Of a DNA stretch of 64,000 nucleotides, positions 43,490 to 64,000 are shown piece after piece. The translations under genes and the position numbers were made by a program. The DNA comes from Diacronema lutheri (lineage: Eukaryota; Haptophyta; Pavlovophyceae; Pavlovales; Pavlovaceae), in contig JAGTXO010000003.1 in the NCBI GenBank assembly GCA_019448385.1, positions 1,178,001 to 1,242,000 on the forward strand, written 5' to 3'. Every line of letters starts with the position of its first letter. The first letter of the stretch is position 1. The notes below the pieces were generated by a model, which saw only the letters and a list, made by a program, of their open reading frames with translations, had not been told where the DNA came from and ran no database searches.

Positions 43490-44226
43490 CCGGGGTCAGC
43501 ACCAGCTGCGGGGGAATCGAGTAGCCACCAATGTCGTCGATACCCGCGCATCCCGGTCACCAGCGAGCGGACAGCGAGGCCCGACGGGCCCAAAGGGCCC
43601 GCACGTGCCTAACCGCCGCGCGCTGCCGGTCGCGTGCCGCCGCCCGCGTGCAGGCGATACACGCCGCCCAGGTCACCGCACGTGTCAGCGCCCGCTTCCG
43701 CCGCCCGGTCGGCCGCACGACGCGACGCCGCCCCTGCGCGCACCACCGGTGCCGCGAAGACCTCCCGGCCGCTGCCGGGCGCCACGCCACCGAGGGCGCC
43801 CAACCCCACCGGCGGAGCGCAGCACAACCCCGAGCACACCACGCCGCCGCCGCCTGTGCAGCCGCGCCCGCGCGCCCCGCCGCTCCCAAACCCATCGACG
43901 GCGGCGAAATGTGTGTGTTTCGTGGTGCCGGCGCAGTCGATGGGCAGGGGCGGCGAAGCGCGCGGAGCGCGGTCGCCAGAGCACGAGGACGCAGCCGTCG
44001 CGATAGAAGAAGAAGTCGTCGTCGAGCGCACCACGCCGCCGCCGCCCGTGCAGCCGCGCCCGCGCGCCCCGCCGCGCCCAAACCCATCGACGGCGGCGAA
44101 ATGTGTGTGTTTCGTGGTGCCGGCGCAGTCGATGGGCAGGGGCGGCGAAGCGCGCGGAGCGCGGTCGCCAGAGCACGAGGACGCAGCCGTCGCGATAGAA
44201 GAAGAAGTCGTCGTCGAGCACACCAC
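43477..44226. repeat. Second copy of the 192-bp satellite with leader
   Basis: The leader (43490-43831) and about 2.06 units (marker at 43893 and 44085, spacing 192) match the copy at 22.7-24.9 kb. The last unit is cut off after cgagcacaccac, exactly where the left Fanzor element begins. Confidence 0.92.
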
Positions 44227-44881
44227 CCATATATAGGGCGCCTGCACGCCCCATACATGATCGCAATCCTGGCCCCTGCGGTCGGTGTGCGCACGCACGC
44301 TCCCCACAGAGCCAGGGGCGCGCCCGCTGGGGCCGCCGCATCCAGAAAGCAACGCTCCCCCGGCCAGCACGGCCGGGGGCCCACAGCTGGGCTCGCCCAA
44401 ACTGGGCTCGCCCAAACTGCAGCAGACGATGTGACCTCGTTTGCGTGACGCCGGCGGCCTGTGCCATCGGCGCAAACTCCGAGCAGAGGGGACCGCACAC
44501 CTCGTAGCGGCCTGTGCGCGAACGCAGCCGCGCGCGCCTGTGCGCGCGCGATCCGCGGACGCGGTAACCCAAGTGCCCGACCGCCCCGTGCACATGCACG
44601 GGGCGGATCGGCCCGACGGCCTGCTGCTGGGGGCAAGCAACTTGCCTCCGACAGCAGCGCCGCCGTACGGAGCGTGCAGGTCTGTGCGCCTTGCGGCGTG
44701 GTGGTGGTGCTTGCGCGAGCGCGCGTCGGCAACCGCGGTGCGTGGCGAGCGGAGGAGCTCGCCACGCGCGCGGCCGCGCGCGTCAGCTCGGGCGCGAGCG
44801 AGCGGCGAGGGGGCTGCGCCGCCGGACACGAGCGCGCGGTGCGCGCGCGCGCGCGCTCGTGTCCGGCGGCAGCCCCGTCGC
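44227..44881 (-). ncRNA. Candidate guide-RNA region of the left Fanzor element
   Basis: This is the conserved non-coding segment from the Fanzor stop codon to the outer element boundary, matching 62391-63045 in the other copy. It begins with a long perfect GC hairpin (about 44818-44870) and ends in a short hairpin at the boundary. In TnpB and Fanzor systems the guide RNA is encoded in this position, with the guide taken from the sequence just outside the element (established knowledge). That a transcript exists here is inference. Confidence 0.45.
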
Positions 44882-47800
44882 TCACGGCCCGCGCAGCTCG
44901 AGCGCCTTCTTGTAGATGTTGCGCGCGGCGTTGAAGTCGCGGTCAAAAATGGTTCGGCACCACGCGCAGCGCACGAGCGTCTTGACGACGCGGTTGGTCA
45001 TCGGGCTCGACGGGTCGTGCTTGCGCACGCGGACCTGCCGGCGCGTCTTGGTGAAGAAGTCGCAGCAGCTCTTGCCGTCGCACTTGCTGCAGTCCTGCGA
45101 CGTGTAGCTCTCGTCGATGAAGCCGATCGTGTAGCCGCGCGCGCGGAAGGCGTCGACGATGCCCATCGTCTGCGACGGCATCTTGCCGCGCTCGTGCCAC
45201 TTGCCAAACTTGGGGTAGTGCAGCTGCAGACTCCAGTCGCCGACCGCGATCACGACCTCGCCCGGCCCGCCGTACGTCGCCGCGAACGCGTCGACCATCC
45301 TGCTGTGCGCGCGCTGGTGGTTGGAGTAGGCGTGCATGCGGCGCGTGCGGAACCACTCGTGCCCGTACGCGCCTCGCAGCAGCTCGCGCGCCTCGCGGCG
45401 CTCGTCCTCGTTGAGCAGCGGCGCGCCGTGGCCGTCGCGGCCCGCGAGCGCCTCCTCGAGCTGCGCGATCGAGCGGCGCTGCGGGTCGCCGCGCACGACC
45501 GTCATCTTCTTGCGCCGCAGCATCCGCTCCGTCGCGCGGCGCTCGCCGGCGAGCCGCCGGTGCCGCGCCGCCGACCAGCTGAGCGTGCGCGGACGCGGAC
45601 GCGTCGCGCCGAACAGCGCGCACGCCCACGCGAAGAAGAGCTTGTTCTTGCCAGGGTCGAACACGACGATCTGCTCGGGCGTGTAGCGGCGCAGCGTCTC
45701 GCGGTCGAGGTAGTCGGTGCGCCCGAGCCCATCCGGAGGGCGCGTCGCACGTGCGCAGGATGGACGCGGCCTTGCCGTCCGTCTGGATCGACGAGACGTG
45801 GCCACCCGCGCGATTGGCGCGCCGGAGCGCGCGCGACTCGGTCATCTTGAACACCACGATGAAGATGCGCGTGCGGTTGCTGCCTGCGGTGATCGGCAGC
45901 CCCGCGTGGCAGCCTCTGCCGACCTTCCGCTCAAAGTCCTCGGTGCAGCGCAGCCACTCCTGGAGGAACGTGGCGTCGATGCGGAGGAAGTGGCCGACGA
46001 TGAGGCTCTTCTTGCCCGGAAGGCGCTTCAGGCCGATCGGCTTGTCGCCGTTGACCTGCCGCGCGGCGTCGAGCACGCGGAGCATCGCCTTGTACCCGTC
46101 GCCCACGTTGTTGCTCTCGCCCGGCGGGCGGTTGAGGTACCAACCCATGTTGTGGTCGCCATCGTAGTCGGCGTCAAAGAGCTCCCAAGCGGGCAGCACT
46201 TCGCGCAGCAGGTCGTCGTCGTCGCGCAGCGCCGCGGGCAGCGACGCGTCGTCGATCTGGCCGCGCCAGATGAGCCGCGTGCAGCGGCGGCGCGCGTGCC
46301 GCATCGTCTGTGCGGGCAGCGCGCCGTTGCCGGCCGGCGGCGCGGCGAGCCCAGCCGCAGCAACCTGCTCGGCGCGCGTGGCCCTCGCGAGGTGCACCTT
46401 GACGAGCGCCTCGAGCGCGCCGTACAGGCCCGACGTGCGCACGTGGTTCACGTAGTTGGTCGTGAGCTGCGCGGCGAGGAAGCCAAGCGGCGGTTTCATG
46501 TACGCGACCTCGATCGCCCTGCGCGCCGACAAAGTCCGCGAGGTCAGCGCCGAGCTGCCCGTGCTGCGGATGCGCGCCTCCCGCGTTTGCCCTCCGCGTC
46601 ACGGCCCAGATGACCGCCCTCCAGTAGGACTCCGTCCACACGGCAGGCAGCTCCTCGCCGGAGCGCAGCGCGCGCTCGGCAAAGTCGACGCCGACCTCGA
46701 TCGCGAGCGCGGCGATGCGGTCAAGTTTGACCGCAAAGTCTCCGTAGGTATTCGTCGCGCACGATGGTCTTCAACTGCAGCTTGATGGACTGGGCGCGGT
46801 CCGCGTCGTCGAGCGCGTCCGTCCGCTGCGTGGCGCGCACGTGCCGCCGCCGCTTCCGCGGTGGCCCGCCATCGCCACGCCCGCCACCGCCGCCGCTGGT
46901 GCCGCCACCGCCGCCGCTGGCGCTGCGTCCGCCGCGTCCGCAGCGTCCACCACGCCCGCCGCGCCCGCCGCGCCCGCCGCGCCCGCCGCCGCGCCCGCCG
47001 CCGCGCCCGCCACCGTCGTCACCGCCGTCGCCGCCGTCGGAGACAGAGTCCGAGCCCGCGTAGACGGATCCGCCCGAGGAGGAGGCATCAGAGGAGGCGT
47101 CAGCGCAGCTGGCCGCACCGTTGGCTGCACGGCTCGCGCGCTCATCGCCGCCCGTGGCAGCGCAGCCGCGCGCGCAGCGCGCACCGCACGCGCGGCGCAA
47201 CGGCACGCGCGGCGCACGCGCGCCCGCCGTTGCGTGTGCGTCGGCAGCAGCGGCGGGCGGCAGCGGCGAGCGGACGGCGCGAGCTGCGCCGGCGCGCGCC
47301 TCCGCCTCGCCGCCGTCGGCGCACGCTCGTGGCGCGCCCGGCTCGCACTCGCCAAACACTTCGGCCTCGGCGTGCGGCGCGGGCTCGGCGGCAGGCGGCG
47401 CGGCGGCCGGCAGCGGCGCGGCGGGCGCGGGCAGCGCGGCGGCGGCGCTGCGCGCAGCGTCGGAAGCGCGCGCAGCCGCCGCCGCCGCGAGCTGCACGGC
47501 AGTGCGCATGCGTGGCTGGCCCATCTCGTCGCAGTTCTTGGCGTACAACTTGTCCTGCTCGGCGACGTGGGCCATCACCATGTCGGTCCTGTGCGCGCCG
47601 ACGTAATGCTCCAGCCGCTCGATCCCGCCTTGGTAGAGGTAACGCCGAAAGTCGCACCGCGGCTCGGAGAGGAGGAGCGGCGGCCGAACGCGCGGCGGTT
47701 GCTCGCGCGGTGGCACGCGCGAACGCGAATTGCAGCGCGACCCGCGTCCGCCGGCGGCGTGTGGAGGCTCGCACGCGCCGTACTGCGCGCACGGCTCGGG

Positions 47801-48079
47801 CGCGGGCGCGGACGCCTCGTCGCTCGCTCGCGCGCAAGCGTCCGCGCCGCGCGCAGGCTCGTGGCGGCGGCGGCGGCCGCCGAGCATCGCGCGGGTGGCG
47901 GTGTGCAGCCGCTTCGTCGCCCACGCCTGCGCCAACGCGCTGGCAGCCGCGATCGCGCCGTCGCGTGAAACGCCTCCAGCGAGCGCCCACTCGCACGCGG
48001 CGCGCGCGCTCAGCTTGGCAAGCAAGGCGAGCCCGGCGGCGATTGGCGGGAGCGCGACGGCCGCGCAGCGGCCGGCCAT
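44882..48079 (-). pseudogene. Fanzor nuclease, left copy, frame-broken
   Basis: The C-terminal 307 codons (45805-44882) are identical to those of the right copy, with RuvC-I, the relocated Glu, the zinc ribbon and RuvC-III. Upstream, compared with the right copy, there is an 8-nt deletion near 46752 that produces a stop after DEYLRRLCGQT, a 23-nt deletion near 46520, and loss of about 0.75 kb near 48200 that removes the N-terminal region. It also shares the frame break before RuvC-I (about 45727-45749). It cannot make the full protein as read. The RGG-rich region is still visible near 46860-47060. Confidence 0.75.
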
Positions 48080-49452
48080 GCACGCGGTTGGGCACGCCAG
48101 CCATGTGCAGCACAGCGCGAGCGCAGCAGCGCGCGCGCCGCGCGCCGCTCACGCGCGCAGCGGCGCGCGCCGCGCGCGCCGCGCGCCGCGCGCGCTCGTG
48201 CAGACCCGGACGGCACAGCTGCCCGAGTCGGTCGTGGACGGGGCAATGTCTGTGCCCAGACGCAGGCCGAACTCGTGGGCACCGGTGTATGTGCTTTGTG
48301 ATGCGCTCATTGGTGTGCCTGCCGGTGAAGAGCGAGACGCCCAGCTTGATGAGCTTCATCTCACCCGTCCGAGGGTCGACCCTCGGACGATGCCCTTTCC
48401 GATGTTCGCCGTGGCAAAGGCATAGATAGAGCTGGACGTGCATGGCCTGGATGGTCGCCGTGCTGAGCTGGCAATGCTTCGGGCTGAGGCCGCACGCGAC
48501 GCTGTGCAAGCTCGGGCCTTCGGCAGAACTACATGGGACGTGGCCGGATTGGCCAGCGCCATCCCGACCCCACCACCGTCCTCCCTGCTCGTCGGTGTGT
48601 AGACGTCGAGGAAGCGGCACGCCCTCGAGTGTGCCGCGGTGTCGCAGCGCGTACGCCTGCACTTCATGCCCCACGTCGTCTTGGCCTCCGGCGCCGGCGG
48701 CCGCCATCCTCGTGGCCTTTCCCGCCCAGAAACCTCAGTTCCTGAACGCACGGCGCGGATTGACGGCGAGAAAGACGAGGAACGCGCACCTCAACGCCGA
48801 GGGTCGCACGCGGATCCACATGGTGCGCGCGCACATCGGCAAGCTCATGCTCTCGTCAAATTACGGCAGGCAGCTGGACGGCATCAAGATTGATGAGAAG
48901 TCGGCACGGTTGCCGCCGGCTGACGTGGCAACGTGCTGGAACGCGAACTTTGACCCGCTCGCGCGCCTGTGCTCGACCCTCTTTGCGCCCCGGTGCGTCA
49001 AAGGCATGGCAGCGTCGCTGGCACGCCAGCATCCTGCCACTCGCACGGCGAGCGGGTTGGGGTAGGTTCTCGCCAGGCGCGACGGACAAGAGCAGCTTTC
49101 GCGATGCCGTAGCTGCGCGGACGACGCGGGGCGCGGGCGTCGTCCGCTGAATCGCATCGCAGGGCTCGGCGTTGACGCCTTCGGCATCACGCGAGGGCTT
49201 GCTATCGGCTGACTCGCCACGCGAGGGCTTGTTATCGCCGAGCGCGATGGCGAGCCCTCGCGCGCGCCCCGCCGGCGCGGCGGCCCACGATGTGCGCGGT
49301 CGCATCGCGTGTGCTGCAACTTATGCGTCGAGTGCGTCGATGTGCGCCTCCACGGCCGCCGATTCCCATTTGAGCGCCCGGCACCGACCCACGCGCCGGC
49401 CGCTTACGTCGTTGCAGCAGGCGAGCGCGCGGCCTTCATGAATCCCGCGGGC
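48080..49452 (-). repeat. Conserved upstream block of the left Fanzor arm
   Basis: Matches 57037-58290 in inverted orientation. It contains a frame (about 48707-48250) whose translation closely follows the right copy, with substitutions such as V/A and H/R; see the entry at 57630. The inner end of homology is at 49452. Confidence 0.7.
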
Positions 49453-50489
49453 GAGGACAGCGAAGCCGCGAGCGGCCCTGGCCGGCCGGCCGGGACCCCG
49501 GCGGGCCCTGCGCCGCCTCGGACGCGCGCGACTGGGGTTTTTATTCCTGCGTCCCCTTCCCCACCTGCAGATGAGCTCTCCAAGGACCTCGCACGGGCGC
49601 ACGAGCACGCTTACAACCTCACTCTCAACGGAGCGCTCTAGAAACGGATCACGCAGATGCAGCACGAGATCTGCTGGCTCCACGCCGGAATATCGTCGCT
49701 CGTTGCGAGTTCGCCCGAGGTTTACGTGAACGACAGCGAGGCCACCGACTACAAGGACCACGGCGTGTGCGTCGAGATCGATGTCTTCAACCGCGACGAG
49801 GTCGAGGGCGCGCCCGTGCCCGCGATTGCGCCCACGAAGGCAGAGCCGGGCATTGAGTCAAAGTGCACCGTGCCCGCACAGGCAGAGCCGGGCAGCGAGT
49901 CCGAGAACGCCGCGCCCGCGCCCGCGCCGGCAAAGCCGCGCACCGAGCCCAAGTGCGCCAAAGTGCCGCCGAACTCGCCCAAGCTCTCGTCGGTCGACAG
50001 CCAGGCCATCGAGTACAGGACCTACTACGGCGGGGGGAGGGGGAACTCACCGTGCTCGCCGCCTGCAAGCGCCTCGAGTTCACGCACGCGTTCGAGTCTG
50101 TGCAGGCCGAGGTCGCCAAGTCCAAGCGCGCCAAGGTTCCGGCCACCGGCGCATCCAGCCGCTGGCTGCGCAACACGATTGTGCGCAACACCCGCAGCTC
50201 GGCCAAGGGCAAGTGGCGCGCCGGCGCAGCGCACTGTATGCCGCGGCGAGCTCAGTCGCGAGCACTGTCCCAGGCCGCGCCCTCCACGGGGTGCACGCGC
50301 ACTCGGCGCGGTCCGGTCAGTCAGAGCACCTCAGCTTGCGCGATGCCAGTTGCGAATTCTACTGGGCGTCAATCACTCGAGCCCTTCCCGTCGCCCGCAT
50401 TCCGGGGTCGGACCCTCCGTCGGCCCGGCTCGGGCCCTCCGTCCGCGGCGCTCGCTCAATCCCGAGTTCTGCTCAAAACGACCGGTCCA
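49453..50489 (+). pseudogene. Unrecognised gene fragment with in-frame TAG
   Basis: One frame runs from about 49441 to 50036 and encodes a Pro/Ala-rich start, a helix (ELSKDLARAHEHAYNL), then TAG at 49639-49641, then a clearly continuing helix (KRITQMQHEICWLHAGI) and an acidic Pro/Glu/Ala repeat region with the recurrent element K-A-E-P-G. Further frames up to 50480 look like later exons or shifts. I do not recognise the family. It lies inside the spacer between the Fanzor arms. Confidence 0.4.
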
Positions 50490-50596
<107 letters not shown>

Positions 50597-50676
50597 CGGG
50601 GTCCCAGTCCTGGACTCGTCCTGGACCACTCAAGCGCTCATTGGCTGGCATTGATTGCTTGATTGTACGACCCGGA

Positions 50677-50700
50677 CCGTGCCCTATATATAGGGCACGG
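50677..50700. repeat. 24-bp perfect palindrome containing CCTATATATAGG
   Basis: Each half is 12 bases with no spacer. The core resembles the outer boundary string of the Fanzor arms (CCATATATAGGGC), and a further partial copy (gtgccctatatcg) follows at 50703-50716. It may be two element ends joined head to head. Confidence 0.75.
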
Positions 50701-50866
50701 ACCGTGCCCTATATCGAAAGGGCGACAAAGAGAAGGCGCTCGACAAGCTCACGGCATGGGCATCCGCAGCAACGCTGTGCGCCGCCAGCTCTCGCAAGCG
50801 CGCCGTCGACATCGGCGCCCCGACCAAGCAGAAGCGCGCGCGCTAACGGCCGTCGCGCGCGCGCGT

Positions 50867-50867
<1 letters not shown>

Positions 50868-50909
<42 letters not shown>
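50868..50909. repeat. Poly-G tract
   Basis: A G run of about 41-42 bases in the spacer. Confidence 0.9.
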
Positions 50910-51291
50910 CGGGTCGGCCAGCATCAGTCGATCAGCGCACCACAGTGACGGCATCAGACGTCGGGACCGCGAGCTTCGCCCCCGCGCACCGTGCACCTCA
51001 GCCGTTTGAAAGGCGACCAAGACGAAAGCGTCCTGACCTCGGACAGTGCGCACCACTTTGTGTGTGCACCCTCGGGGCGGCGGACGGCCTGGTCGCCGAG
51101 CCGCTCGCAGGCCTGCACGGCTGCACCCTTTTTTTTCCCAACCGGAGGGAACATGAAAGAGAGGGACGGCACGCGAGGTGTGAAGGAGCGTGGGAGGTGC
51201 GCAGCCACGGCCCTTCCCTTGCACGGGTTTTTGCGTGGCCGCTCAGGTAGCGCGGGAGCTTCCGTTTCCGCGTCGGTGCCGCCACGGCCCT

Positions 51292-51294
<3 letters not shown>

Positions 51295-51335
<41 letters not shown>

Positions 51336-51372
51336 TTCTCCCCTTTTAAAAAAAGGGGGGAGAAAAAGGGGT
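51295..51372. repeat. Poly-C tract followed by A/T-rich hairpin
   Basis: About 41 C bases (51295-51335) are followed by ttctccccttttaaaa and then its approximate complement aaaggggggagaa, so the strand can fold back on itself. Confidence 0.8.
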
Positions 51373-51591
51373 GCGCCCGCAAAGCCGGGCAGGGCGCCGT
51401 CGGGGCTGGCGGCGTAGTCGGCGCCGTGTGCCACGACCAGGACCGCGCCAGCCCCGACGCCCAGGGCGAGCCAGACAAATGGCGTGGCGCGGAGGGCCCG
51501 CGCCCCTGTGCGATTACGACAGGGGCGCCGCCCCGTTTCCCTGGCCTGCCGGAGGTGCGGCCGCGAGGCCGTCGCGCGAATTCGCCGCGAA

Positions 51592-52621
51592 CTACCGGGG
51601 GCGCTTGGGCGCCGTCGACAGACGCGTCGGCACGAAGCCCGGCGGGAAAACGAACGCCGAGCCGCGCGCGTGCTCGTCGTCCGGCGCGGTCGGCGTAGGG
51701 CACGCGCTCGCGCTGCGCGAAAAGTACCGGGAAGCATTTGTCGTCGACGGGGCGGCCCAGCAAGTCTGCGGTCGTGGCCATGTCGAACAAGGCGCGCCCG
51801 AAGCTGACCGTGCCGCTTGCGCGCGGGCGCAGCGAGACAGGCCCGCCGCGCGCCGCCGGACCGGCGGCGGGGGGCGGCGCGAAAGGCGGCGGCGGACGGC
51901 CACCGGGCGGTGCCTGGTGAGAGAGCGCGGTAGTGGCCGCGCTCGTCGGCGGCCGAGAGCCTGCCGCACCGGAAGGAGCTGCGGCGCTGGCGGCGGAGAA
52001 GGGGCCGAGCGTGAGTGCCAGGCCGGTCTCCTGGATGGCGCGGGCGAGCGCAATTGCCGGGTTGAGCTCCACGAGGCGCCGAGTCGCGCCAGGGCCAACA
52101 GGAGAGAAGGCGCCCTCGTCGGTGCACTCGGTCGTCGCAGCGGACGAGAGAGCTGAGCGGACGGCGACGGCGGCGATAGGGTCGTCGAGGGCAGCAAGAG
52201 TGCCGACCGTGAGCTGCGCGGCGAAAGCCTCCGGCAAGCCGGGCGGCAAGGGCGAGCCGTTGACGGACACGACACGCTGCGCGACAGCAGCGGCGTCGAG
52301 GGCGAAGGGCGCGGTGTCGCGAACCAGCGAGAACCCGGCGACCGCCACCCCGAGGAGCGCGGGGGCGGGGCCGGGGTAGCGCTCGCAGAGCCACGAGGAA
52401 GCGCTCATCCGCGCGTCATGCGTCAGCTCGAGGCCGAGAGCGTGCAGGAGCGAGGCGTGAGGCCCCGGGTCGAGGGTAGAAACGCGCAAGAGGCACGTGT
52501 CGAGGGAGCAGGCGGAAAGCGAGGCGGAGCCGGCGACGAGGGCGAGGGCCGCGCCGGCGGCGCTGTCCACCGGGACGAGGTAGACGTCAGCATCGCGCGA
52601 GGGCAGGAGCGCGGTTGCCAT
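51592..52621 (-). CDS. Unrecognised protein in the spacer
   Basis: From ATG 52621 the frame encodes a well-balanced protein with hydrophobic strands (VYLVPVD, LLHALGLEL, LLGVAVAGFSLV) followed by a Pro/Ala/Gly linker and a conserved-looking end (FGRALFDMATTADLLG, then FPVLFAQRERVPY). Around 51680 the natural continuation moves to another frame, ending DEHARGSAF then a Pro-rich tail with stop at 51592. A single-base shift or an unresolved splice is therefore likely. A further frame near 51430-51480 encodes one membrane-spanning-like helix. I do not recognise the family. It diverges from the gene starting at 52792. Confidence 0.4.
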
Positions 52622-52791
52622 TCGCGGTGAAGTGGACGAGAAGGAGGGGTTCGGCGGGGGGGCCGGGGTGGCGCTCGCAGAGCCTTTGGACTCCCTTCCT
52701 TGCCGGAAGCTTCGTAACAAGCTGCGTTATAAAACCTGGTAGCCCGCGTGAGCGCGCGGTGTGTGCTCCGGCGAGAGAGCGCCGGCGCGGC

Positions 52792-53066
52792 ATGACCGGC
52801 AGCGTGTACGGCATTTCGCCGAACCTTGACGTCGCCAAGCTTGCCTTGGAGGGCATCATCTGCGCAAAGGCACGCACGCGCGCCGCTGCGCCGCTCTCGA
52901 TCGCCCTCACGACGCGTCACACGCGCCCGGCGCGCGCGCGCTCCCGCTGCCTTCGTGCGCTCTTGTTGCCCTTGATTCCTGCCTCGCAAGCCCTGACTCG
53001 CACGCGCCACACCCTCTTACGCCAAGCCGTAATCTCACGCGCGCGCACGCCGACCACGTGTGCGCG

Positions 53067-53100
<34 letters not shown>

Positions 53101-55687
53101 GCGCGCGCGCGCGCGCGCCCATTCGCCGACGCGCGCGCGCGCGCTCGTTTGCGCAGGTCCAGCCGAAGCGCGCGAATCCCGCTCGCTGCGCCGTCTCTGC
53201 TTCCTTCATACGTCCAGCTTCTTCGTGCGCCTACGCCTGCGCGCACCTCGGCGGCGAGGAGAAGGTCCACGTGCACTTCCACCTCACGCCGTGCGGCAAA
53301 TTCGCGACAACCGAGCGCGCGGGCTGGCCCGAGCGCATCATCGCGCCCATGGAGAAGCGCTTCTTCTACGAGGAGCACCAGCGTCGGAAGCGCTTCCAGC
53401 AGAAAGACGAGACCGCGCGGGACGAGATCGCCTACCCCTTCGGCCCCGACGTGCAGATGGACTTGCCGGTCGTCGGCTTCGGCGGCGGCGGCGCCGCCAC
53501 CTCCGCCGCCGACGCGCCGATACCTGCGCCGCCGAGGCGAGTCGTCGAGCAGTCGAGTCTCACCGACGCGCAGCGCGTGCTCCCCGTGCAGAAGAGGGTC
53601 GCTGCGTTGCAGCGGCGGCAAGCGCACTTCGGCGGAAGGGTAGGCGGTCAAGTGGCGTCGCAGCCCGCGCAGCTGCCGGAGCAGCACTCGCAGTCGACCG
53701 GAGACGGGAGCGCCGCATGTACTGCCGAGCACCACGCCGCCACGCGCGCGCCGCTTCCGCGCGTGACGCTCGCGCAGCCGGCTGCGCAGTCAGCCTCGCA
53801 CGCGGCGAGCGGCTGCGGCTCGGCAATGCCGGCGCTCTCCCCGCCTGCGCTCGAATTGCCGCCACCCGCGCGCGCCGCAGCAACCGTGCCGGCGGGCTGC
53901 GCGCCGGCAGCGGACGCGGGTGGGACGTTCGCGGGCGTGCCGCCTGCCGCCTCTGCGGGCATGCCGCCCGCGCCGGCGAGCGCGCAGCCGGCGCTCGCTC
54001 CACCGAGGCGGCTCGCCGCCTGGCCGCTGACGGCACCGCCCACCGCCGTCCCTCGCGCTGCCGACTCGACGCGCGAGCTTGACGCCAAGCGTCTGCTCTT
54101 CTCGCACGACGGAGAGCGGCAGCTGGCGAGCCTGGTGCTCGATACGCTCCGCCTCAAAGTCGGCGGCAAATTGCCATTCGTCGAGCTTCGCGGCTCCGCT
54201 GGCGTGCGGCGCGGAGAGCTTGTCCTCGAGCAGCGCGGCGGCAATCTGATTGGAGAGGCTGTGCGTGCCATGCTGGCGCAGACTATGCCCGAGTGCCCAT
54301 TCTACACGCCGCCGGCGCCCGCCGTCACGGCGCTGCTGCGCAACCCGCCGGGCGGGTGGACAGCAGAGACGCGAGCTGAGGCGCGCGATGCGTTCGCCAT
54401 GCCGCCGCACATGAGGTGCGTCATTGTCGCGCCGCACGTCTTTTCCGTGCCGAATGCGCCGCGGACCCGCGCTTCCGCGTCGATGGCGACCCGCAGCTGA
54501 TCATCTGCCCGTGCCCCAAGTGCATGAGCAACGAGTCGATCTGCCGCACGCCGATGACGGCCGCCCGCTTTGTCTACGACTTTGGCAGCACGTTATGCGT
54601 GTTCAGCGAGGTGATCCACTGCAAGGCGTGCGGCGCGCAGGCAGCGCCGAGCTCGCTCCTCGACAAGCCCGACAACATGCCTCTTGCCGTCCGCCATAAG
54701 TACGCCGAGATCATGCCCATGCCCGTCGGCGCCGTCACGATGCGGCTCGCACAACACTTTTTCATCTCGACATGTGCAATGTCGAAGCTTGCAGAGCAGC
54801 TGTCGGCGTCGATCCTCCTCAGCCGGCCTCTTGCGGAGGGCGAGTACCTGCGCTTCGTCGAGCAAGAGCAGCATGCCGAGCGCTCACGGCGCGCGCAGCA
54901 TCGGCAGACGACGCTCCACGACTTTCTGCCGGGCTCGGTGCCGCTCGTAGTCGGGGCCGACCGCAGCGAGTGGCCTCCGTTCATGCGCGTCGATGCGCCC
55001 AACTCGCCCATCACACCGGACAACATCCGCACAGTTGTTATGCGCGCCGGAGGGAGAGCTTCTTGCCGCGCTCCTCCGGCTAAGCGCGCGCTTCGAGCGC
55101 ATGGGCACGCTGGCGGGCGTCACGGTGTGGTACCCAGACTTGTGCTGCCTTAGGTGCACGCAGGCGCGGCTGAGCCAGCACGTCCTGGTCGACCTCTTCG
55201 ACAACGTCACGCGGCGCCCTTTTCTCCACCCCTTCCACGCTTGCAAGCGCACCGGTGACACGCTCCACGTCGCCAACCAAGAGTACGCGACCGCCTTCAA
55301 GCGGGACTATTCGAGGCGCACATGCCGGACGTCGATGCCGTCGCGCAGCACTTGGCTCTGCAGGAGCGCAGCGACGTGGCAACGGCGAAGGCGTCTGTGC
55401 TGTCCAACCTTTGCAAGTACAGAAGGAATGGTGCGGTCCGGATGCCGACTGAGGCTGCGGCGCAGCTGGACGCGCTCGAGCTCAAGTGGACGATCTTCAC
55501 GGAGGAGCAGCCCACTTTGTCGCCTGTGCGCCCCTCCAAGGGAAAGGGGTCTGGCCGTGTTCTCGACACCTTCGAGTCGCTCGCCTCTTTGAGGTCATGC
55601 GTCTCGCGCGGCTGCTTGCACGACCCGTTCCCGCCGCCTGCGGTCATGGCAATGGACGGCCTCGCGTACGCCTTCAATGAGCTTTAA
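52792..55687 (+). pseudogene. Cys-rich transposon-associated-like protein, frame-broken
   Basis: A first exon (52792-52870, MTGSVYGISPNLDVAKLALEG...) ends at AAG|GCACGC, another possible GC donor. The following intron would hold a poly-C tract (53069-53098) and end at the acceptor before 53157. The next frame to about 54440 includes KVHVHFHLTPCGKF, a disordered Pro/Ala region and a folded segment (LASLVLDTLRLKVGG). The frame then shifts: 54440-55050 holds two Cys pairs, CPCPKC and CKAC, separated by about 40 residues. Later pieces in two more frames hold CLRC and a final helical part. The spacing of the Cys pairs resembles zinc-binding domains of large transposon-associated eukaryotic proteins (DUF6729-like), but this is only a resemblance. 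Breaks lie near 54445, 55050 and 55320. Confidence 0.4.
53069..53098. repeat. Poly-C tract
   Basis: A C run of about 30 bases, followed by an alternating GC stretch (53099-53150); probably intronic. Confidence 0.85.
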
Positions 55688-56990
55688 GTGGCGTCTTTTG
55701 CCGATCCTGCGGGTGGCATTGGCGCGGACCACGCCCACTACGAGCCGATGGGCTGGAAGTACGAGCCGGACAATCGTGCGGCGCGGCGCGAGTTTGACGA
55801 GCTCGTGGAGGCGCGGGCGCACATGAGGCTTGCGGCGTTGCAGGCATCGCCGCTCTCATCCGAATCGCCGCAGCCGCCCTCGCAGCAGCAGAGCCCGTTC
55901 TCGCAGCAGTCGCCGCCGCCCTCGCAGCAGCCGCGCGCCGGCAAGCAGAGCCTGCACGCAAAAGCCGCGCAGGGCCACCTCTTCCAATCCAGTACCAACG
56001 CTGTCGAGCCGCGATATCCGTCGCGAGCGGAGCGCGCGCTTGCGGTGGAATGCCTGGCGACCGCAATCTACACCTGTGGATCGACGAACGAGGGCGCCGT
56101 GTTCAAGGCGGCGCAGGCGCACTACACATCCGCGTTGTTGCAGCGTTACTTACAGCCCGCTGGCGCTGGCGTGCCGCCGGAAATCAGCATCCCGTCGGCC
56201 GGTGCCTTCCGCAGCATCTCGCGCGCGGCCTCGGAGCAGCATGCTGCTGCGTCCATCGACGCGGCCGTGACGGGCAGGTCATCACGCGAAGCGGCGCGGG
56301 CAGGTGCGGGCACACGCCGCTGCGAGCACTCCTGCCACACGCTGCTCACCAGCGCGCCCCCTCGCCTTGTGCTCCCGCGTTTGCCGTGTGCAGAATCAGA
56401 GGAGGGCGCGCCGGCCGCGGCCGGGCCCGCGTCGCTACTCGCGCTCGAGTTTCAGCGCCAGCACCTGACGCCTGTCCTCGCGCGCTCTGTGCGTCCTCCC
56501 ACAGCAGGTACGCTCGAACGCCGTCGCTTCTCCAGTTCACGCGCGCCTTTTGCGCCTCGAGCGCGAGGGGGCCTTGCCCTGACCGCGCCGCCCCAATCCC
56601 CTCCCGTCGCGAAACGAGTGCAGGCTGCGCACACGCATGTGCCTTTGCGCAGCCGCCCTACTACGCTTCCGCGCCCCGGCTCTTTCCAGGAGCCATGCAC
56701 GGCGTCTCCGCGCTGCCTACCGCTGCGGTGCCAGCTGCAGCAGCCCGCGCTCCCACCGTCAGCGCACGAACCGACGAGATGCTGCAGCGTGCGAAAGAGG
56801 GCGGAGCTGTGCATGTGCGGGGGCTCAATAAGGCAAACACGCGCAAGCTCGCGATCACGCTGTGCGTGCTCCAAAACAACAGGTCGCTCGACCAGATCAA
56901 GGACGGTGTTGTCGCGGCGCTTGGCAGCGCGCGGCCGAGCGATGAGGAGCTCGGTGCGTCTCGACCGGAGAAGCGCGCGCGCAAGGAAGA
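55688..56990 (+). other. Unrecognised fragmentary coding sequence in the spacer
   Basis: A frame from 55688 encodes an acidic-aromatic start (HYEPMGWKYEPDN), a helix, a Gln/Ser/Pro-rich linker, and a folded helix-rich segment to about 56270. A separate frame at about 56696-56985 encodes a short protein with a helix (VHVRGLNKANTRKLAITLCVLQNN) and a basic end. They could be exons of the preceding gene or independent fragments. No family is recognised. Confidence 0.3.
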
Positions 56991-57034
56991 GGGGGGGGGG
57001 GGGGGGGGGGGGGCGGGGGGGGGGGGGGGGGGGG
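56991..57034. repeat. Poly-G tract at the inner end of the right Fanzor arm
   Basis: About 43 G with one C, directly next to the inner homology boundary at about 57037. Confidence 0.9.
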
Positions 57035-57036
57035 TG

Positions 57037-58290
57037 GCCCGCGGAATTCGTAAAGGCCGGGCGCTCGCCTGCTATGACGACGTAAGCGGCCGGCGCGTGG
57101 TCGGTGCCGGGCGCTCAAATGGGAATTGGCGGCCGTGGAGGCGCACATCGACGCACTCGACGCGGAAGTTTCAGCACACGCGATGCGACCGCGACCGCGC
57201 GCATCGTGGGCCGCCGCGCCGGCGGGGCGCGCGCGAGGGCTCGCCATCGCGCTCGGCGATAGCAAGCCTTCGCGTGGCGAGTCAGCCGATAGCAAGCCCT
57301 CGCGTGATGCCGAAGGCGTCAACGCCGAGCCCTGCGATGCGGTTCAGCGGACGACGCCCGGCTACGGCGTCGCGAAAGCTGCTCTTGTCCGTCGCGCCTG
57401 GCGAGGACCTACCCCAACCCGCTCGCCGTGCGAGTGGCAGGATGGTGGCGTGCCAGCGACGCTGCCACGCCTGTGACGCACCGGGGCGCAAAGAGGGTCG
57501 AGCACACGCGCGCGAGCGGGTCAAAGTTCGCGTTCCAGCACGTTGCCACGTCAGCCGGCGGCAACCGTGCCGACTTCTCATGCCGTCCAGCTGCCTGCCG
57601 TAATTTGATGAGAGCATGAGCTTGCCGATGTGCGCGCGCACCATGTGGATCCGCTTGCGACCCTCGGCGTTGAGGTGCGCGTTCCTCGTCTGCTTTCTCG
57701 CCGTCAATCTGCGCCTGCGTTCAGGAGCTGTTGTTTCTGGGCGGGAAAGGCCACGAGGATGGCGGCCGCCGGCGCCGGAGGCCAAGACGACGCGGGGCGT
57801 GAAGTGCGGGCGTACGCGCTGCGACACCGTGGCACGCTTGAGGGCGTGCCGCCTCCTCAACGTCTACACACCGACGAGCAGGGAGGACGGTGGTGGGGTC
57901 GGGATGGCGCTGGCCGATCCGGCCACGTCCCGTGTAGTCCCGCCGAGGTCCCGAGCTTGCACAGCGCCGCGTGCGGCCTCAGCCCGAAGCATTGCCAGCT
58001 CGGCACGGCGACCATCCAGGCCATGCACGTCCAGCTCTATCTATGCCTTTGCCACGGCGAACATCGGAAACGGCATCGTCCGTGGGTCGACCCTCGGACG
58101 GGTGAGATGAAGCTCATCAAGCTGGGCGTCTCGCTCTTCACCGGCGGGCACACCAATGGGCGCATCACAAAGCACATACACCGGTGCCCACGAGTTCGGC
58201 CTGCGTCTGGGCCCGGACATGCCCCGTCCAAACTCCTGGGCCCAGACGCAATGTTTGGCCTGCGTCTGGGCCCGGACATTGCCCCGTCCG
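57037..58290 (+). repeat. Conserved upstream block of the right Fanzor arm
   Basis: Matches 48150-49452 inverted. A frame from about 57762 to 58220 is preserved in both copies with mostly single-residue differences. It includes AYALRHRGTLEGVP, HTDEQGGRWWGRDGAG, and a His/Cys-containing part (LCLCHGEHRK, then RITKHIHRC). It may be a separate small protein or an upstream exon of the Fanzor gene; I do not recognise a family. A 22-bp direct repeat (cgatagcaagcc...) lies at about 57256-57305. Confidence 0.5.
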
Positions 58291-58597
58291 GCTAACGTAC
58301 GACTCGGGCGCGGCCGCATACTCGTACGAGTGTGCGTCCACGCCCGAGTCGGTTGGCAGCACTGAGACCATGCCCGGGCGCTCGGCGCGCGTGCGCGGTC
58401 GACCGCATCGTGAGTATCGCCGCGCGGACGCGCTTTCGGCAAGCGGGGCGGCGGCACGCTCCGCTGTTCCGACTCGACGCACACTCGAACCGGCCTCGTA
58501 CATCCGCCGGACGCACACTCAAACCGTCCGGACTTGCGGCGCGCTGTGTGTTCGACCCGCCGCCGCCGCCATCCACCCAGTTCGGCGGCGCTCGACC

Positions 58598-61500
58598 ATG
58601 ACGGCGCGGCTCGTGCCCGTCACGCTCGCCATCGCCGCCTGCTTTGGCGCGGCGCGCGGCACAGGGCTGCTCGACACCGCGCCGCTCGCCCTCTCCGCGT
58701 CTTCGTCTTCGGCCTCGCCTCTCGCCGACGCCGTCTCAGCCGTCGCGCTGCGGCCCGCCGACATGCTCGCCGGCGGCACCGTCGTTCCGAGCCTGCGCAA
58801 CGTCGGCGGCATCGTGGCGCGATCCGCATCCTCCGCTCTGCTCGCCGACGCCAAGTACGGCCGCCCGTACGCGCCGCCCGACGGCGGCGCGCGCCGCACG
58901 GCGCAGGCGTCGCGGCCGCCGCCGTCGCCGTTCGCGTCGATCGTGCACGAGCGCCGACGCAGCCGGCGGGAGCGCCGGCAGGAGGCGCTCGCAGCGCGGC
59001 GGCGGGCGAGGCGGCTCTGCCACCGCCGGCTCTGCACGAGCGCGCGCGTGCCGCTGCGCGCGCGAGCGGCGCGCGGCGCGCGCGCCGCTGCGCTCGCGCT
59101 GTGCTGCGCAGGGCTGGCGTGCTCAACCGCGTGCATGGCCGGCCGCTGCGCGGCCGTCGCGCTCCCGCCAATCGCCGCCGGGCTCGCCGTGCTTGCCAAG
59201 CTGAGCGCGCGCGCCGCGTGCGAGTGGGCGCTCGCTGGAGGCGTTTCACGCGACGGCGCGATCGCGGCTGCCAGCGCGTTGGCGCAGGTGTGGGCGACGA
59301 CGCGGCTGCACACCGCCGCCCTCGCGATGCTCGGCGGCGGCCGCCGCCGCCACGAGCCTGCGCGCGGCGCGGACGCTTGCGCGCGAGCGAGCGACGAGGC
59401 GTCCGCGCCCGCGCCCGAGCCGTGCGCGCAGTACGGCGCGTGCGAGCCTCCACACGCCGCCGGCGGACGCGGGTCGCGCTGCGATTCGCGCTCGCGCGTG
59501 CCGCCGCGCGAGCAACCGCCGCGCGTTTGGCCGCCGTTCCTCCTCTCCGAGCCGCGGTGCGACTTTCGGCGCTACCTTTACCAAGGCGGGATCGAGCGGC
59601 TGGAGCATTACGTCGGCGCGCACAGGACCGACATGGTGATGGCCCACGTCGCCGAGCAGGACAAGTTGTACGCCAAGAACTGCGACGAGATGGGCCAGCC
59701 ACGCATGCGCACTGCCGTGCAGCTCGCGGCGGCGGCGGCTGCGCGCGCTTCTGACGCTGCGCGCAGCGCCGCCGCCGCGCTGCCCGCGCCCGCCGCGCCG
59801 CTGCCGGCCGCCGCGCCGCCTGCCGCCGAGCCCGCGCCGCACGCCGAGGCCGAGGCCGAAGTGTGTGGCGAGTGCGAGCCGGGCGCGCCACGAGCGTGCG
59901 CCGACGGCGGCGAGGCGGAGGCGCGCGCTGGCGCAGCTCGCGCCGACCGCTCGCCGCTGCCGCCCGCCGCTGCTGCCGACGCACACGCAACGGCGGGCGC
60001 GCGTGCGCCGCGCGTGCCGTTGCGCCGCGCGTGCGGTGCGCGCTGCGCGCACGGCTGCGCTGCCACGGGCGGCGATGAGCGCGCGAGCCGTGCAGCCACC
60101 GGTGCGACCAGCTGCGCTGACGCCTCCTCTGACGCCTCCTCCTCGGGCGAATCCCTCTACGCGGGCTCGGACTCTGACTCCGACAGCGGCGACGGCGGTG
60201 GCGGGCGCGGCGGCGGGCGCGGCGGCGGGCGCGGCGGCGGGCGCGGCGGGCGTGGCGGGCGTGGCGGGCGCGGCGGCGGGCGCGGCGGGCGTGGCGGGCG
60301 TGGCGGACGCGGCGGACGCGGCGCCGGTGGCGGCGGTGGCGGCGCCGGCGGCGGCGGTGGCGGGCGTGGTGGCGGGCCACCGCGAAAGCGGCGGCGGCAC
60401 GTGCGCGCCACGCAGCGGACGAACGCGCTCGACGACGCGGACCGCGCCCAGTCCATCAAGCTGCAGCTGAAGACCATCGTGCGCGACGAATACCTACAGC
60501 GCCTGCAGGACTTTGCGGTCAAATTTGACCGCATCGCCGCGCTCGCGATCGAGGTCGGCGTCGACTTTGCCGAGCGCGCGCTGCGCTCCGGCGAGGAGCT
60601 GCCTGCCGTGTGGACGGAGTCCTACTGGAGGGCGGTCATCTGGGCCGTGACGCGGAGGGCAAACGCGGGAGGCGCGCATCCGCAGCACGGCCAGCTCGGC
60701 GCTGACCTCGCGGACTTTGCCGGCGCGCACCACGCCGTGCTCGCGGCGGGCGGGCCGATCGAGGTCGCGTACATGAAACCGCCGCTTGGCTTCCTCGCCG
60801 CGCAGCTCACGACCAACTACGTGAACCACGTGCGCACGTCGGGCCTGTACGGCGCGCTCGAGGCGCTCGTCAAGGTGCACCTCGCGAGGGCCACGCGCGC
60901 CGAGCAGGTTGCTGCGGCTGGGCTCGCCGCGCCGCCGGCCGGCAACGGCGCGCTGCCCGCACAGACGATGCGGCACGCGCGCCGCCGCTGCACGCGGCTC
61001 ATCTGGCGCGGCCAGATCGACGACGCGTCGCTGCCCGCGGCGCTGCGCGACGACGACGACCTGCTGCGCGAAGTGCTGCCCGCTTGGGAGCTCTTTGACG
61101 CCGACTACGATGGCGACCACAACATGGGTTGGTACCTCAACCGCCCGCCGGGCGAGAGCAACAACGTGGGCGACGGGTACAAGGCGATGCTCCGCGTGCT
61201 CGACGCCGCGCGGCAGGTCAACGGCGACAAGCCGATCGGCCTGAAGCGCCTTCCGGGCAAGAAGAGCCTCATCGTCGGCCACTTCCTCCGCATCGACGCC
61301 ACGTTCCTCCAGGAGTGGCTGCGCTGCACCGAGGACTTTGAGCGGAAGGTCGGCAGAGGCTGCCACGCGGGGCTGCCGATCACCGCAGGCAGCAACCGCA
61401 CGCGCATCTTCATCGTGGTGTTCAAGATGACCGAGTCGCGCGCGCTCCGGCGCGCCAATCGCGCGGGTGGCCACGTCTCGTCGATCCAGACGGACGGCAA

Positions 61501-62390
61501 GGCCGCGTCCATCCTGCGCACGTGCGACGCGCCCTCCGGATGGGCTCGGGCGCACCGACTACCTCGACCGCGAGACGCTGCGCCGCTACACGCCCGAGCA
61601 GATCGTCGTGTTCGACCCTGGCAAGAACAAGCTCTTCTTCGCGTGGGCGTGCGCGCTGTTCGGCGCGACGCGTCCGCGTCCGCGCACGCTCAGCTGGTCG
61701 GCGGCGCGGCACCGGCGGCTCGCCGGCGAGCGCCGCGCGACGGAGCGGATGCTGCGGCGCAAGAAGATGACGGTCGTGCGCGGCGACCCGCAGCGCCGCT
61801 CGATCGCGCAGCTCGAGGAGGCGCTCGCGGGCCGCGACGGCCACGGCGCGCCGCTGCTCAACGAGGACGAGCGCCGCGAGGCGCGCGAGCTGCTGCGAGG
61901 CGCGTACGGGCACGAGTGGTTCCGCACGCGCCGCATGCACGCCTACTCCAACCACCAGCGCGCGCACAGCAGGATGGTCGACGCGTTCGCGGCGACGTAC
62001 GGCGGGCCGGGCGAGGTCGTGATCGCGGTCGGCGACTGGAGTCTGCAGCTGCACTACCCCAAGTTTGGCAAGTGGCACGAGCGCGGCAAGATGCCGTCGC
62101 AGACGATGGGCATCGTCGACGCCTTCCGCGCGCGCGGCTACACGATCGGCTTCATCGACGAGAGCTACACGTCGCAGGACTGCAGCAAGTGCGACGGCAA
62201 GAGCTGCTGCGACTTCTTCACCAAGACGCGCCGGCAGGTCCGCGTGCGCAAGCACGACCCGTCGAGCCCGATGACCAACCGCGTCGTCAAGACGCTCGTG
62301 CGCTGCGCGTGGTGCCGAACCATTTTTGACCGCGACTTCAACGCCGCGCGCAACATCTACAAGAAGGCGCTCGAGCTGCGCGGGCCGTGA
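58598..62390 (+). CDS. Fanzor RNA-guided nuclease (eukaryotic TnpB homologue), right copy
   Basis: The frame from ATG 58598 (start uncertain; ATG 59137 is the alternative shared with the left copy) runs unbroken to about 61545 and then continues one frame over to the stop at 62388-62390. In order it has a long Ala/Arg-rich N-terminus, an Arg-Gly-Gly-rich tract (60190-60380), a basic PPRKRRRH cluster like a nuclear localisation signal, and a helical Fanzor core with LGFLAAQLTTNYVNHV and HVSSIQTDG. RuvC-I is VVFDPGKN (Asp at 61614). The usual RuvC-II position reads VGDW without Glu, whereas FIDESYTSQDCSKC carries a Glu at 62160, as in Fanzors. The zinc ribbon is CSKC and CAWC. RuvC-III is DRDFNAARNIY (Asp at 62334). 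Activity depends on how the frame break near 61525-61545 is resolved. Confidence 0.8.
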
Positions 62391-63045
62391 GCGACGGGGC
62401 TGCCGCCGGACACGAGCGCGCGCGCGCGCGCACCGCGCGCTCGTGTCCGGCGGCGCAGCCCCCTCGCCGCTCGCTCGCGCCCGAGCTGACGCGCGCGGCC
62501 GCGCGCGTGGCGAGCTCCTCCGCTCGCCACGCACCGCGGTTGCCGACGCGCGCTCGCGCAAGCACCACCACCACGCCGCAAGGCGCACAGACCTGCACGC
62601 TCCGTACGGCGGCGCTGCTGTCGGAGGCAAGTTGCTTGCCCCCAGCAGCAGGCCGTCGGGCCGATCCGCCCCGTGCATGTGCACGGGGCGGTCGGGCACT
62701 TGGGTTACCGCGTCCGCGGATCGCGCGCGCACAGGCGCGCGCGGCTGCGTTCGCGCACAGGCCGCTACGAGGTGTGCGGTCCCCTCTGCTCGGAGTTTGC
62801 GCCGATGGCACAGGCCGCCGGCGTCACGCAAACGAGGTCACATCGTCTGCCGCAGTTTGGGCGAGCCCAGTTTGGGCGAGCCCAGCTGTGGGCCCCCGGC
62901 CGCGCTGGCCGGGGGCGCGTTGCTTTCTGGATGCGGCGGCCCCAGAGAGCGCGCCCCTGCCCCTGCGGTCGGTGCGCGTGCGCGCGCCGACCGTAGGGGC
63001 CAGGGTTGCGATCATGTATGGGGCGCACAGGCGCCCTATATATGG
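62391..63045 (+). ncRNA. Candidate guide-RNA region of the right Fanzor element
   Basis: Starts 11 bases after the stop with a perfect 21-bp stem (62402-62422 with 62434-62454, 11-nt loop) and ends with a 6-bp hairpin (63021-63026 with 63031-63036) just before the boundary at 63045. The segment is conserved in the left copy although it does not code. The position fits the omega/fRNA of TnpB and Fanzor systems. No promoter or transcript evidence is available. Confidence 0.5.
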
Positions 63046-63055
63046 CACGATGGTG

Positions 63056-64000
63056 CTACTGGAACAGCTTGATGAGACCGTCCCAGCCGCAGGTCGCCAT
63101 CGTGCTGGGCAGGATGGGGTGGAAGATGGCGCCGATGCACACGCCATCGTGCGCCTTGACCTTGCGGAAGACCTTGGTCGACTTCCAATCCCAAAAGAAG
63201 ACGCGCCCGTCCGAGTCGCCCGAGAGCACGAACTGGCCGTCGGGCGTCACATCGATTTGGCACGCGTACCCGGCGTTCATGTGCCCGCGGAAGAGCTTCT
63301 TATTGTGCTGCCTGAAGCGGTTCTGCACGCCATACACCACGATCTGGTTGTCGAGGGACTGGCCGAGCAGCCATTTCTCTGCGCACGGCAGCGCGGTGGC
63401 GGCGTGGCGGCGCGCGCATCTCAGCGGCCGGGCGCTCGCTCGAGCGCGGCCGCGCGCGCGCGCGCGCGGCCGGGCGCTCGCGCGACACCGTTCGGATGGA
63501 GCGCGACGAAGGGTATTGAATGCATGTGCGGCTCCGAGATGTGCTTGATCGGCACGGGGATGCCGTACTCCCACACGAGCATCTTCTTGTCGTCCGCCGT
63601 CGTCACGAAGCGCCGGTTCTGGTCGCAAAAGGTGACGGTGTTGACGGCGCCGAGGTGCTGGTTGTAAAACTGCACGGGCGTGCCCGACTCGATGTCCCAC
63701 TGCACCGCCTGCTTGTCCGCCTGCCCGGCGATGAAGATGTTCTGCTTGTCGGCGTCGGGGTGGAACTTGACGCAGTAGGGCAACTTCTTCGTCGTGTACG
63801 CGCCGAGGCACTGGCCCGTCTCGGTGTCCCACAGCTTGATGTACCGGTCGTACGAGCACGTGAGGAAGCGCGTGCCGTCGTTGTTGAAGCAGATGTCGCG
63901 CACCGCCGCCGAGTGGCCAAGGAAGGTGCGGAGGCACTTTCGCGAGCCGTTCACGTCCCACAGCTTCACTTTTGCGTCCATCCCGGCGGAGAGGAGGAGG
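63056..64000 (-). CDS. CDC40: Pre-mRNA-processing factor 17, C-terminal WD40 part
   Basis: Partial: the 5' end lies beyond the window. Two exons are visible, 64000-63489 and 63378-63056, with a 110-nt GT-AG intron. The translation follows PRP17/CDC40 closely: [85 protein letters not shown], then [29 protein letters not shown] and the terminal [14 protein letters not shown]17 acts in the second catalytic step of splicing. The stop codon lies only 10 bp from the right Fanzor boundary, so its 3' UTR and polyadenylation site must come from the element. Confidence 0.95.

Follow-up and report, generated by a model that had tools for sequence, protein, structure and literature searches.

The stretch of DNA analyzed here (the window), 64,000 nucleotides (nt) from the haptophyte Diacronema lutheri (C4:1178001-1242000; C-numbers denote contigs of the same genome, which comprises 43,492,796 bases in 103 contigs), contains two Fanzor-bearing elements in inverted orientation. 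Fanzors are RNA-guided nucleases related to TnpB and usually travel with transposons. In a self-alignment of the window, 44227-46528 and 60744-63045 formed an inverted repeat with 99% identity over 2,302 nt, and inverted blocks of 70 to 99% identity continued inward as far as 49452/57037. This bears out a first-pass annotation of the sequence, which had described inverted Fanzor-bearing arms around a 7.6-kb spacer; of its observations on the arms, the arms themselves, their outer end, and the zinc ribbon in each stood, whereas the outermost base, the inner boundary, the cargo, and a 1,319-amino-acid (aa) open reading frame (ORF) did not.

Both arms have a common outer end, as had been proposed, and the element's terminal letters are ...GGCGCCCTATATATG. 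The 16-mer CCATATATAGGGCGCC, by which this boundary was initially defined, occurs 5 times genome-wide (reversed control, 0), and the 14-mer CATATATAGGGCGC occurs 18 times exactly and 61 times if one mismatch is allowed (control, 2). Since the sequence beyond the right end diverges immediately past TATATATG in most copies, the outermost G/C of the 16-mer has to be assigned to the flank. Among the 26 right ends read, both window arms counted, 16 terminate exactly in TATATATG.

The left element (44228-50690, minus strand) is the shorter copy, with its right end at 44228 and its left terminus, which was identified by inspection, at about 50690; its 3' part aligns to the right arm, and most of the family's middle part is missing from it. 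The right element (50715-63044, plus strand) is the longer copy, and its 5' start at 50,715 is uncertain and may be a truncation. The two adjoin left end to left end in opposite orientations. The inner boundary that the first-pass annotation had drawn at 49452/57037 does not coincide with an element end; what ceases there, next to a poly-G tract, is the left copy's match to the right copy, and single copies on other contigs continue through this point.

Both Fanzor genes are recognizable by their C-terminal parts. On the right, the stretch with the RuvC motif and the zinc ribbon (61584-62390, plus strand) matched PF07282 at 1.2e-10 (41.9 bits versus a curated cut-off of 26.3), and its frame is broken upstream near 61538. 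On the left, the C-terminal open part (44882-45840, minus strand) forms an open frame of 319 aa with a PF07282 match, likewise above the curated cut-off, and has the same break as the right copy. Thus, of the Fanzor frame initially assigned to each arm, the zinc ribbon held in both, but the right-hand 1,319-aa ORF is without the Fanzor C terminus, which lies in another frame. Of 15 copies, 14, including both arms of the window, contain the motif D-x(125-275)-[TS][TS]-x-x-C4-RD, defined for Fanzor in the accessible text of PMC3627910. The frame-shifting indel near 61,538 is common to both arms, leaving both genes broken; neither the 12 other copies that fitted the test pattern (16 of 30 loci did not fit it) nor, by alignment, the C78 copy has it. 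Each window copy has 319 open codons, and the 20 other family members found in the PF07282 search have 111 to 1,779. Judged from their sequences, both window Fanzors appear nonfunctional. A 499-aa Fanzor stretch from C75 showed a weak likeness over residues 186-451 to SpuFz1 of Spizellomyces punctatus (8gkh; accessible text of PMC10432273), with an E value of 0.17 and 13.9 bits, a match that ranked below four unrelated chains in the same search and is by itself no proof; the window's own Fanzor stretch had no match in the PDB. Substitution phase between the right arm and the C85 copy, used as a coding test, showed no clear bias.

Downstream of each gene lies the 3' noncoding segment (62391-63044, plus strand, in the right element; 44228-44881, minus strand, in the left), which had been annotated as conserved and is indeed 97% identical between the arms. 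Searching the genome with the 655-bp segment gave 79 matching pieces, among them 15 full or nearly full-length copies besides both arms at 95 to 99% identity. By analogy with TnpB and Fanzor systems, this segment may be the place of the guide RNA. The last 32 nt of both arms form a hairpin with a 14-bp stem and a 4-nt loop. At the right element's right end (63013-63044, plus strand), the 100-nt stretch folds with a z score of -6.92; at that of the left element (44228-44259, minus strand), the whole 100-nt stretch is not unusual (z, -0.65). Across 13 distinct rows, 95.6% of the hairpin's pair cells are standard, a value reached in 38 of 500 shuffles.

The first-pass annotation had suggested searching the genome for single copies, for empty sites, and for further composites. 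Single copies were found on C69, C71, C25, C9, and C85, among others; they are colinear with the right element and span the Fanzor gene plus most of the 7.6-kb spacer. In similarity searches with the spacer, in which the best 40 candidates were scored, the matches listed for 53,300-58,400 included C69 at 98% (all 5,101 bases), C71 at 97% (first 4,729), and C25 at 97% (first 4,293), as well as parts of further copies on C9, C71, C69, and C85 at 94 to 98%. The C69 and C25 matches extend back to 51,721 and 51,770, and matches on C33, C75, and C25 start at 50,715 or 50,722. Given that single copies are colinear through it, keeping order and orientation at 94 to 98% identity, the spacer consists mostly of the right-hand element's 5' part, and the gene-like cargo initially seen there is mostly element sequence. 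This bears directly on the idea of a composite, in which both outward-facing right ends and everything between them would move as one 18.8-kb unit with cargo. It is true that both outer ends are intact right ends bounding the pair. However, most of the spacer is present in single copies, the pair was not seen a second time, and the two elements differ in age and structure. We therefore consider mobilization as a unit extremely unlikely, and a composite with cargo was rejected on the colinearity of the single copies through most of the spacer; support goes to the annotation's other alternative, the insertion of two copies in opposite orientation. One other inverted pair of right ends was found (C22:111489 and C22:125175), with loci identical over 3,256 bp. 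Because this identity includes the outer flanks, the C22 pair is a larger palindrome and not a moved unit; it may be a recent large palindrome or an assembly artifact.

Two stretches of the right element have additional features. Its 5' region holds a segment (51366-52730) with eight further matches elsewhere at 88 to 92%, crossed by an open minus-strand frame, that is perhaps a captured gene or another repeat. At 59050-59377, copies on C85, C25, C69, C9, and C1 carry extra units of about 294 bp. PDB matches of spacer frames coincided largely with the poly-G stretch and were set aside; another search gave two weak ribosomal-protein matches.

At the inner side of the pair, the left copy's 5' module (49625-50487) is 86 to 92% identical to the left modules of copies on C78, C95, and C9. 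The C78 left end opens with TATATAGGGCGC, and a 1,351-bp query taken from it gave at least 41 matches; at least 40 of these are long, and all long ones begin within the query's first 4 bases, with 95 to 99% identity apart from the query itself (best 40 candidates). Contigs seem to break inside these left-end repeats. The left copy's left terminus (about 50,690 in the window) faces a second left-end-like sequence, and the junction of the two elements (50685-50714, no strand assigned) consists of the facing sequences GTGCCC TATATATA GGGCAC and a short inverted remnant. An 81-nt stretch at the junction folds with a z score of -6.49. A subtelomeric repeat had been considered for 49.57-50.68 kb, which has many matches about 30 kb from contig starts, and was rejected, as this stretch is part of the family's left end with a sharp boundary.

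The divergence between the arms is distributed unevenly. They are identical over 60756-62850 (plus strand; partner at about 44422-46516 on the left), with 0 substitutions in 2,095 aligned bases, versus 132 in 2,981 (4.4%) outside this tract, counted from 57,151 on and leaving out the preceding bin, which extends beyond the homologous part. Seventeen substitutions, 5 of them within 5 bases of the shared indel, are common to both arms and occur in none of 13 other copies. The contrast between the identical tract and the 4.4% difference outside it suggests separate insertions followed by gene conversion between the arms. At 62,841-62,991, a single position separates the right arm from its nearest other copy, versus 14 positions for the left arm, and conversion probably ran from right to left. 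The same comparison speaks to whether the foldback could come from misassembly or chimeric reads. Inverted arms are a common misassembly, and the C22 pair, identical over its 3,256 bp on both sides, might be one. Here, in contrast, the outer flanks differ, the arms diverge by 4.4% outside the identical tract and have different 5' parts, and the PacBio subreads have an N50 of 23.458 kb according to the accessible text of the genome paper (PMC8379373), so that an artifact appears very improbable.

The target site could be read from one further copy. The C71 copy (about C71:936,870-953,808), of which both ends were read, sits inside a tubulin-tyrosine ligase gene. When its host flanks are joined via one TATATATG, they read FDADYRVYMHREGVCRTSS and align there without a gap to tubulin-tyrosine ligase 8asn_F (3.5e-25), from which we conclude that the target probably contained TATATATG; this is the one empty site that was reconstructed. 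Of the alternative joins, the one without TATATA loses two residues and two others are frame-broken; the PDB comparison was made with the TATATATG join only. In a test for flanking duplications, a C9 copy without a left terminus gave a clear one of 11 bp (0 of 500 shuffles as good), a C14 copy gave 6 bp (9 of 500), and a C37 copy gave 7 bp (13 of 500); the remaining copies have 5 bp or fewer, or none.

The affinity of the family is indicated by the C78 copy, which holds a PIF1-type helicase in two frames (PF05970, 1.2e-21 and 1.6e-15). Among solved structures, its best relative is Helraiser, a Helitron transposase (7lcc; 3.9e-17, versus 4.8e-4 for PIF1), a likeness confined to the helicase segments, with Helraiser's Rep domain not seen here. 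Moreover, 3' ends are constant and 5' starts vary among copies, although several of the variable starts reflect other 5' modules. A LINE-like retrotransposon was rejected, as there was no reverse transcriptase among the Pfam matches and the Helraiser-like helicase was found instead. From these sequence traits, the 3' terminal hairpin, and the TATATATG target of the C71 copy, the family looks Helitron2-like. The inverted motif TATATAGGGCGC occurs at each end of the element without asymmetry. As a Rep domain was not found in the sequences searched, the family is a candidate member in the formal sense; there is more support for its working in the manner of a one-ended rolling-circle element that carries a Fanzor. 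Alternatively, the family could be a transposon that moves by cut and paste, with GGGCGC...GCGCCC as its short inverted ends, TATATA as the duplicated target, and the helicase as a passenger. The inverted TATATAGGGCGC / GCGCCCTATATA ends, the TATATA flanking the C71 insertion on either side together with the single TATATATG in its empty site, and the missing Rep domain would all suit such a transposon. Yet a Helraiser-like helicase, variable 5' starts at constant 3' ends, a flanking duplication at a C9 copy that has no left terminus, and no DDE transposase domain among the Pfam matches speak against it, and we regard it as unlikely, while granting it some weight.

Taken together, we favor, with a probability of roughly 0.7, the reading that the pair consists of two separate copies of one Fanzor-bearing, Helitron2-like family, joined left end to left end. 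The family would insert at or beside TATATATG. The first insertion, that of the left element, would leave a reverse-strand TATATATG at its own left end, and a second copy, the right element, would then enter at that TATATATG in the opposite orientation. Later, the inverted arms would have exchanged about 2.1 kb by gene conversion, probably from right to left, and this proposed exchange would be why both Fanzor genes carry the same break. By analogy with TnpB and characterized Fanzors, the guide RNA of intact copies may combine the 3' end with the adjoining first bases of the right flank, and cutting of element-free sites by the nuclease may in turn favor copying of the element.

Several observations weigh against this reading. 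The TATATATG target was reconstructed for the C71 copy only, and a clear flanking duplication was found in only 1 of the 14 copies tested, for some of which the true 5' junction is uncertain. The left ends of the C78 and C71 copies fold near average (z, -1.09 and -1.78), and covariation lends the 3' hairpin no support, a slide of +2 scoring slightly higher. In C78 the helicase's reading frame is interrupted, and Pfam showed no helicase in the frames of the window copies. A Rep domain was not found by Pfam in the frames of most of the C78 copy, on both strands of 50,691-58,000, or in 7 kb of a larger relative, nor by phmmer against the PDB with parts of these sequences, searches that covered no complete autonomous copy. 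A genome search with the Helitron_like_N profile gave one match only, on another contig. Finally, short-read polishing may have homogenized the arms. The sole Helitron_like_N (Rep region) match, C63:35738-36019 (8.3e-23), may mark a separate Helitron family.

The first-pass annotation knew of no described equivalent for such a pair, a view that the accessible portions of the literature cited here do not sustain. In Chlamydomonas, Bao and Jurka (2013) described Helitron2 elements that carry Fanzor1 and show truncation at the 5' end, abundant 3' ends, and 7- to 19-bp duplications (PMC3627910). The nonautonomous, Fanzor1-bearing CRe-1, CRe-2, and CRe-3 of Chlamydomonas reinhardtii resemble the family described here in carrying the Fanzor toward the 3' side, in their constant 3' ends and 3' hairpin, and in frequent 5' truncation and internal deletion; their 7- to 19-bp duplications occur at truncated copies, and the one here measures 11 bp at one copy. 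Unlike the CRe elements, whose target is TTTT, the family described here has TATATATG as its target (one copy) and is much longer, asymmetric inverted repeats were not demonstrated, and Rep was not found (PMC3627910). Two head-to-head Helitrons have been reported in maize; they are adjacent and in opposite orientation, as here, but are dissimilar elements, and Fanzor goes unmentioned in the accessible text (PMC2267711). For FoHeli of Fusarium, self-insertion in opposite orientation has been proposed as a model. There too the elements are adjacent, but those actually observed form a tandem, and the accessible text does not mention Fanzor (PMC5148889). Because Fanzor1 Helitron2 elements and head-to-head Helitrons have already been published, the pair adds a further example to a kind already described and is not a new composite. 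The genome paper (PMC8379373) has 0 occurrences of helitron and of fanzor in its main text, and a literature search for Fanzor together with haptophytes, with subscription papers largely outside its range, returned one paper, a CRISPR review judging by title and abstract.

The window family is not the only Fanzor-bearing one in this genome. A search with PF07282 gave at least 148 matches (150 of 306 candidates scored), 22 of them on copies of the window family, both arms included; 115 others among those listed score nearly alike (about 31 bits; grouped by score). These 115, which make up most of the matches, would represent a second, larger Fanzor-bearing family, with frames of up to about 1,015 aa (e.g., C9:1904994-1930403). 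PIF1 gave at least 150 matches (150 of 414 candidates scored). Downstream of 40 left ends, a PIF1 match lies at 3.2 to 6.6 kb in 28 and a zinc-ribbon match at 20.4 to 30.2 kb in 20, and a zinc-ribbon match lies within 35 kb of 69 of 145 PIF1 matches, near 25 kb in 47 of the 69. These distances suggest that left ends, PIF1 matches, and zinc-ribbon matches form one family. In one larger-family copy, read in part, we also noted a chromodomain (2.8e-12) and a ubiquitin-hydrolase stretch (5.3e-6). It is tempting to speculate that this genome is a large-scale host of site-specific, Fanzor-bearing rolling-circle elements, comprising the window family and the second family (perhaps at least 100 copies, many with about 20 to 30 kb from left end to Fanzor, and sharing the window family's left end), that Fanzor drives copying by cutting uninserted or sibling sites, and that the identical 2.1-kb tract, which covers the Fanzor gene's 3' half, is the trace of an RNA-guided break repaired from the other arm. 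We consider this extended scenario quite unlikely as it stands.

The surroundings of the pair contain a tandem repeat abutting the left element (43831-44226; period 192, 2.1 copies, 98% matches), a sulfotransferase-like ORF to the left of this repeat (42401-43489; 8.3e-9), and a WD40-repeat gene on the minus strand (63047-63999; 5.4e-24), the 3' end of which lies just right of the right element.

If the favored reading of two separate insertions is true, a haptophyte would join the hosts of Fanzor-bearing Helitron-like elements, and the striking foldback would be accounted for by a target preference and a second insertion. Fanzor cleavage may help such elements spread, as Saito et al. (2023) put forward in the accessible text of their study (PMC10432273). 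Similar copies are numerous, some of them have long nuclease frames that are open, their right flanks differ, and at least one empty site can be reconstructed; in an alga that can be cultured, this would allow the suggested role of Fanzor in transposon copying to be tested.

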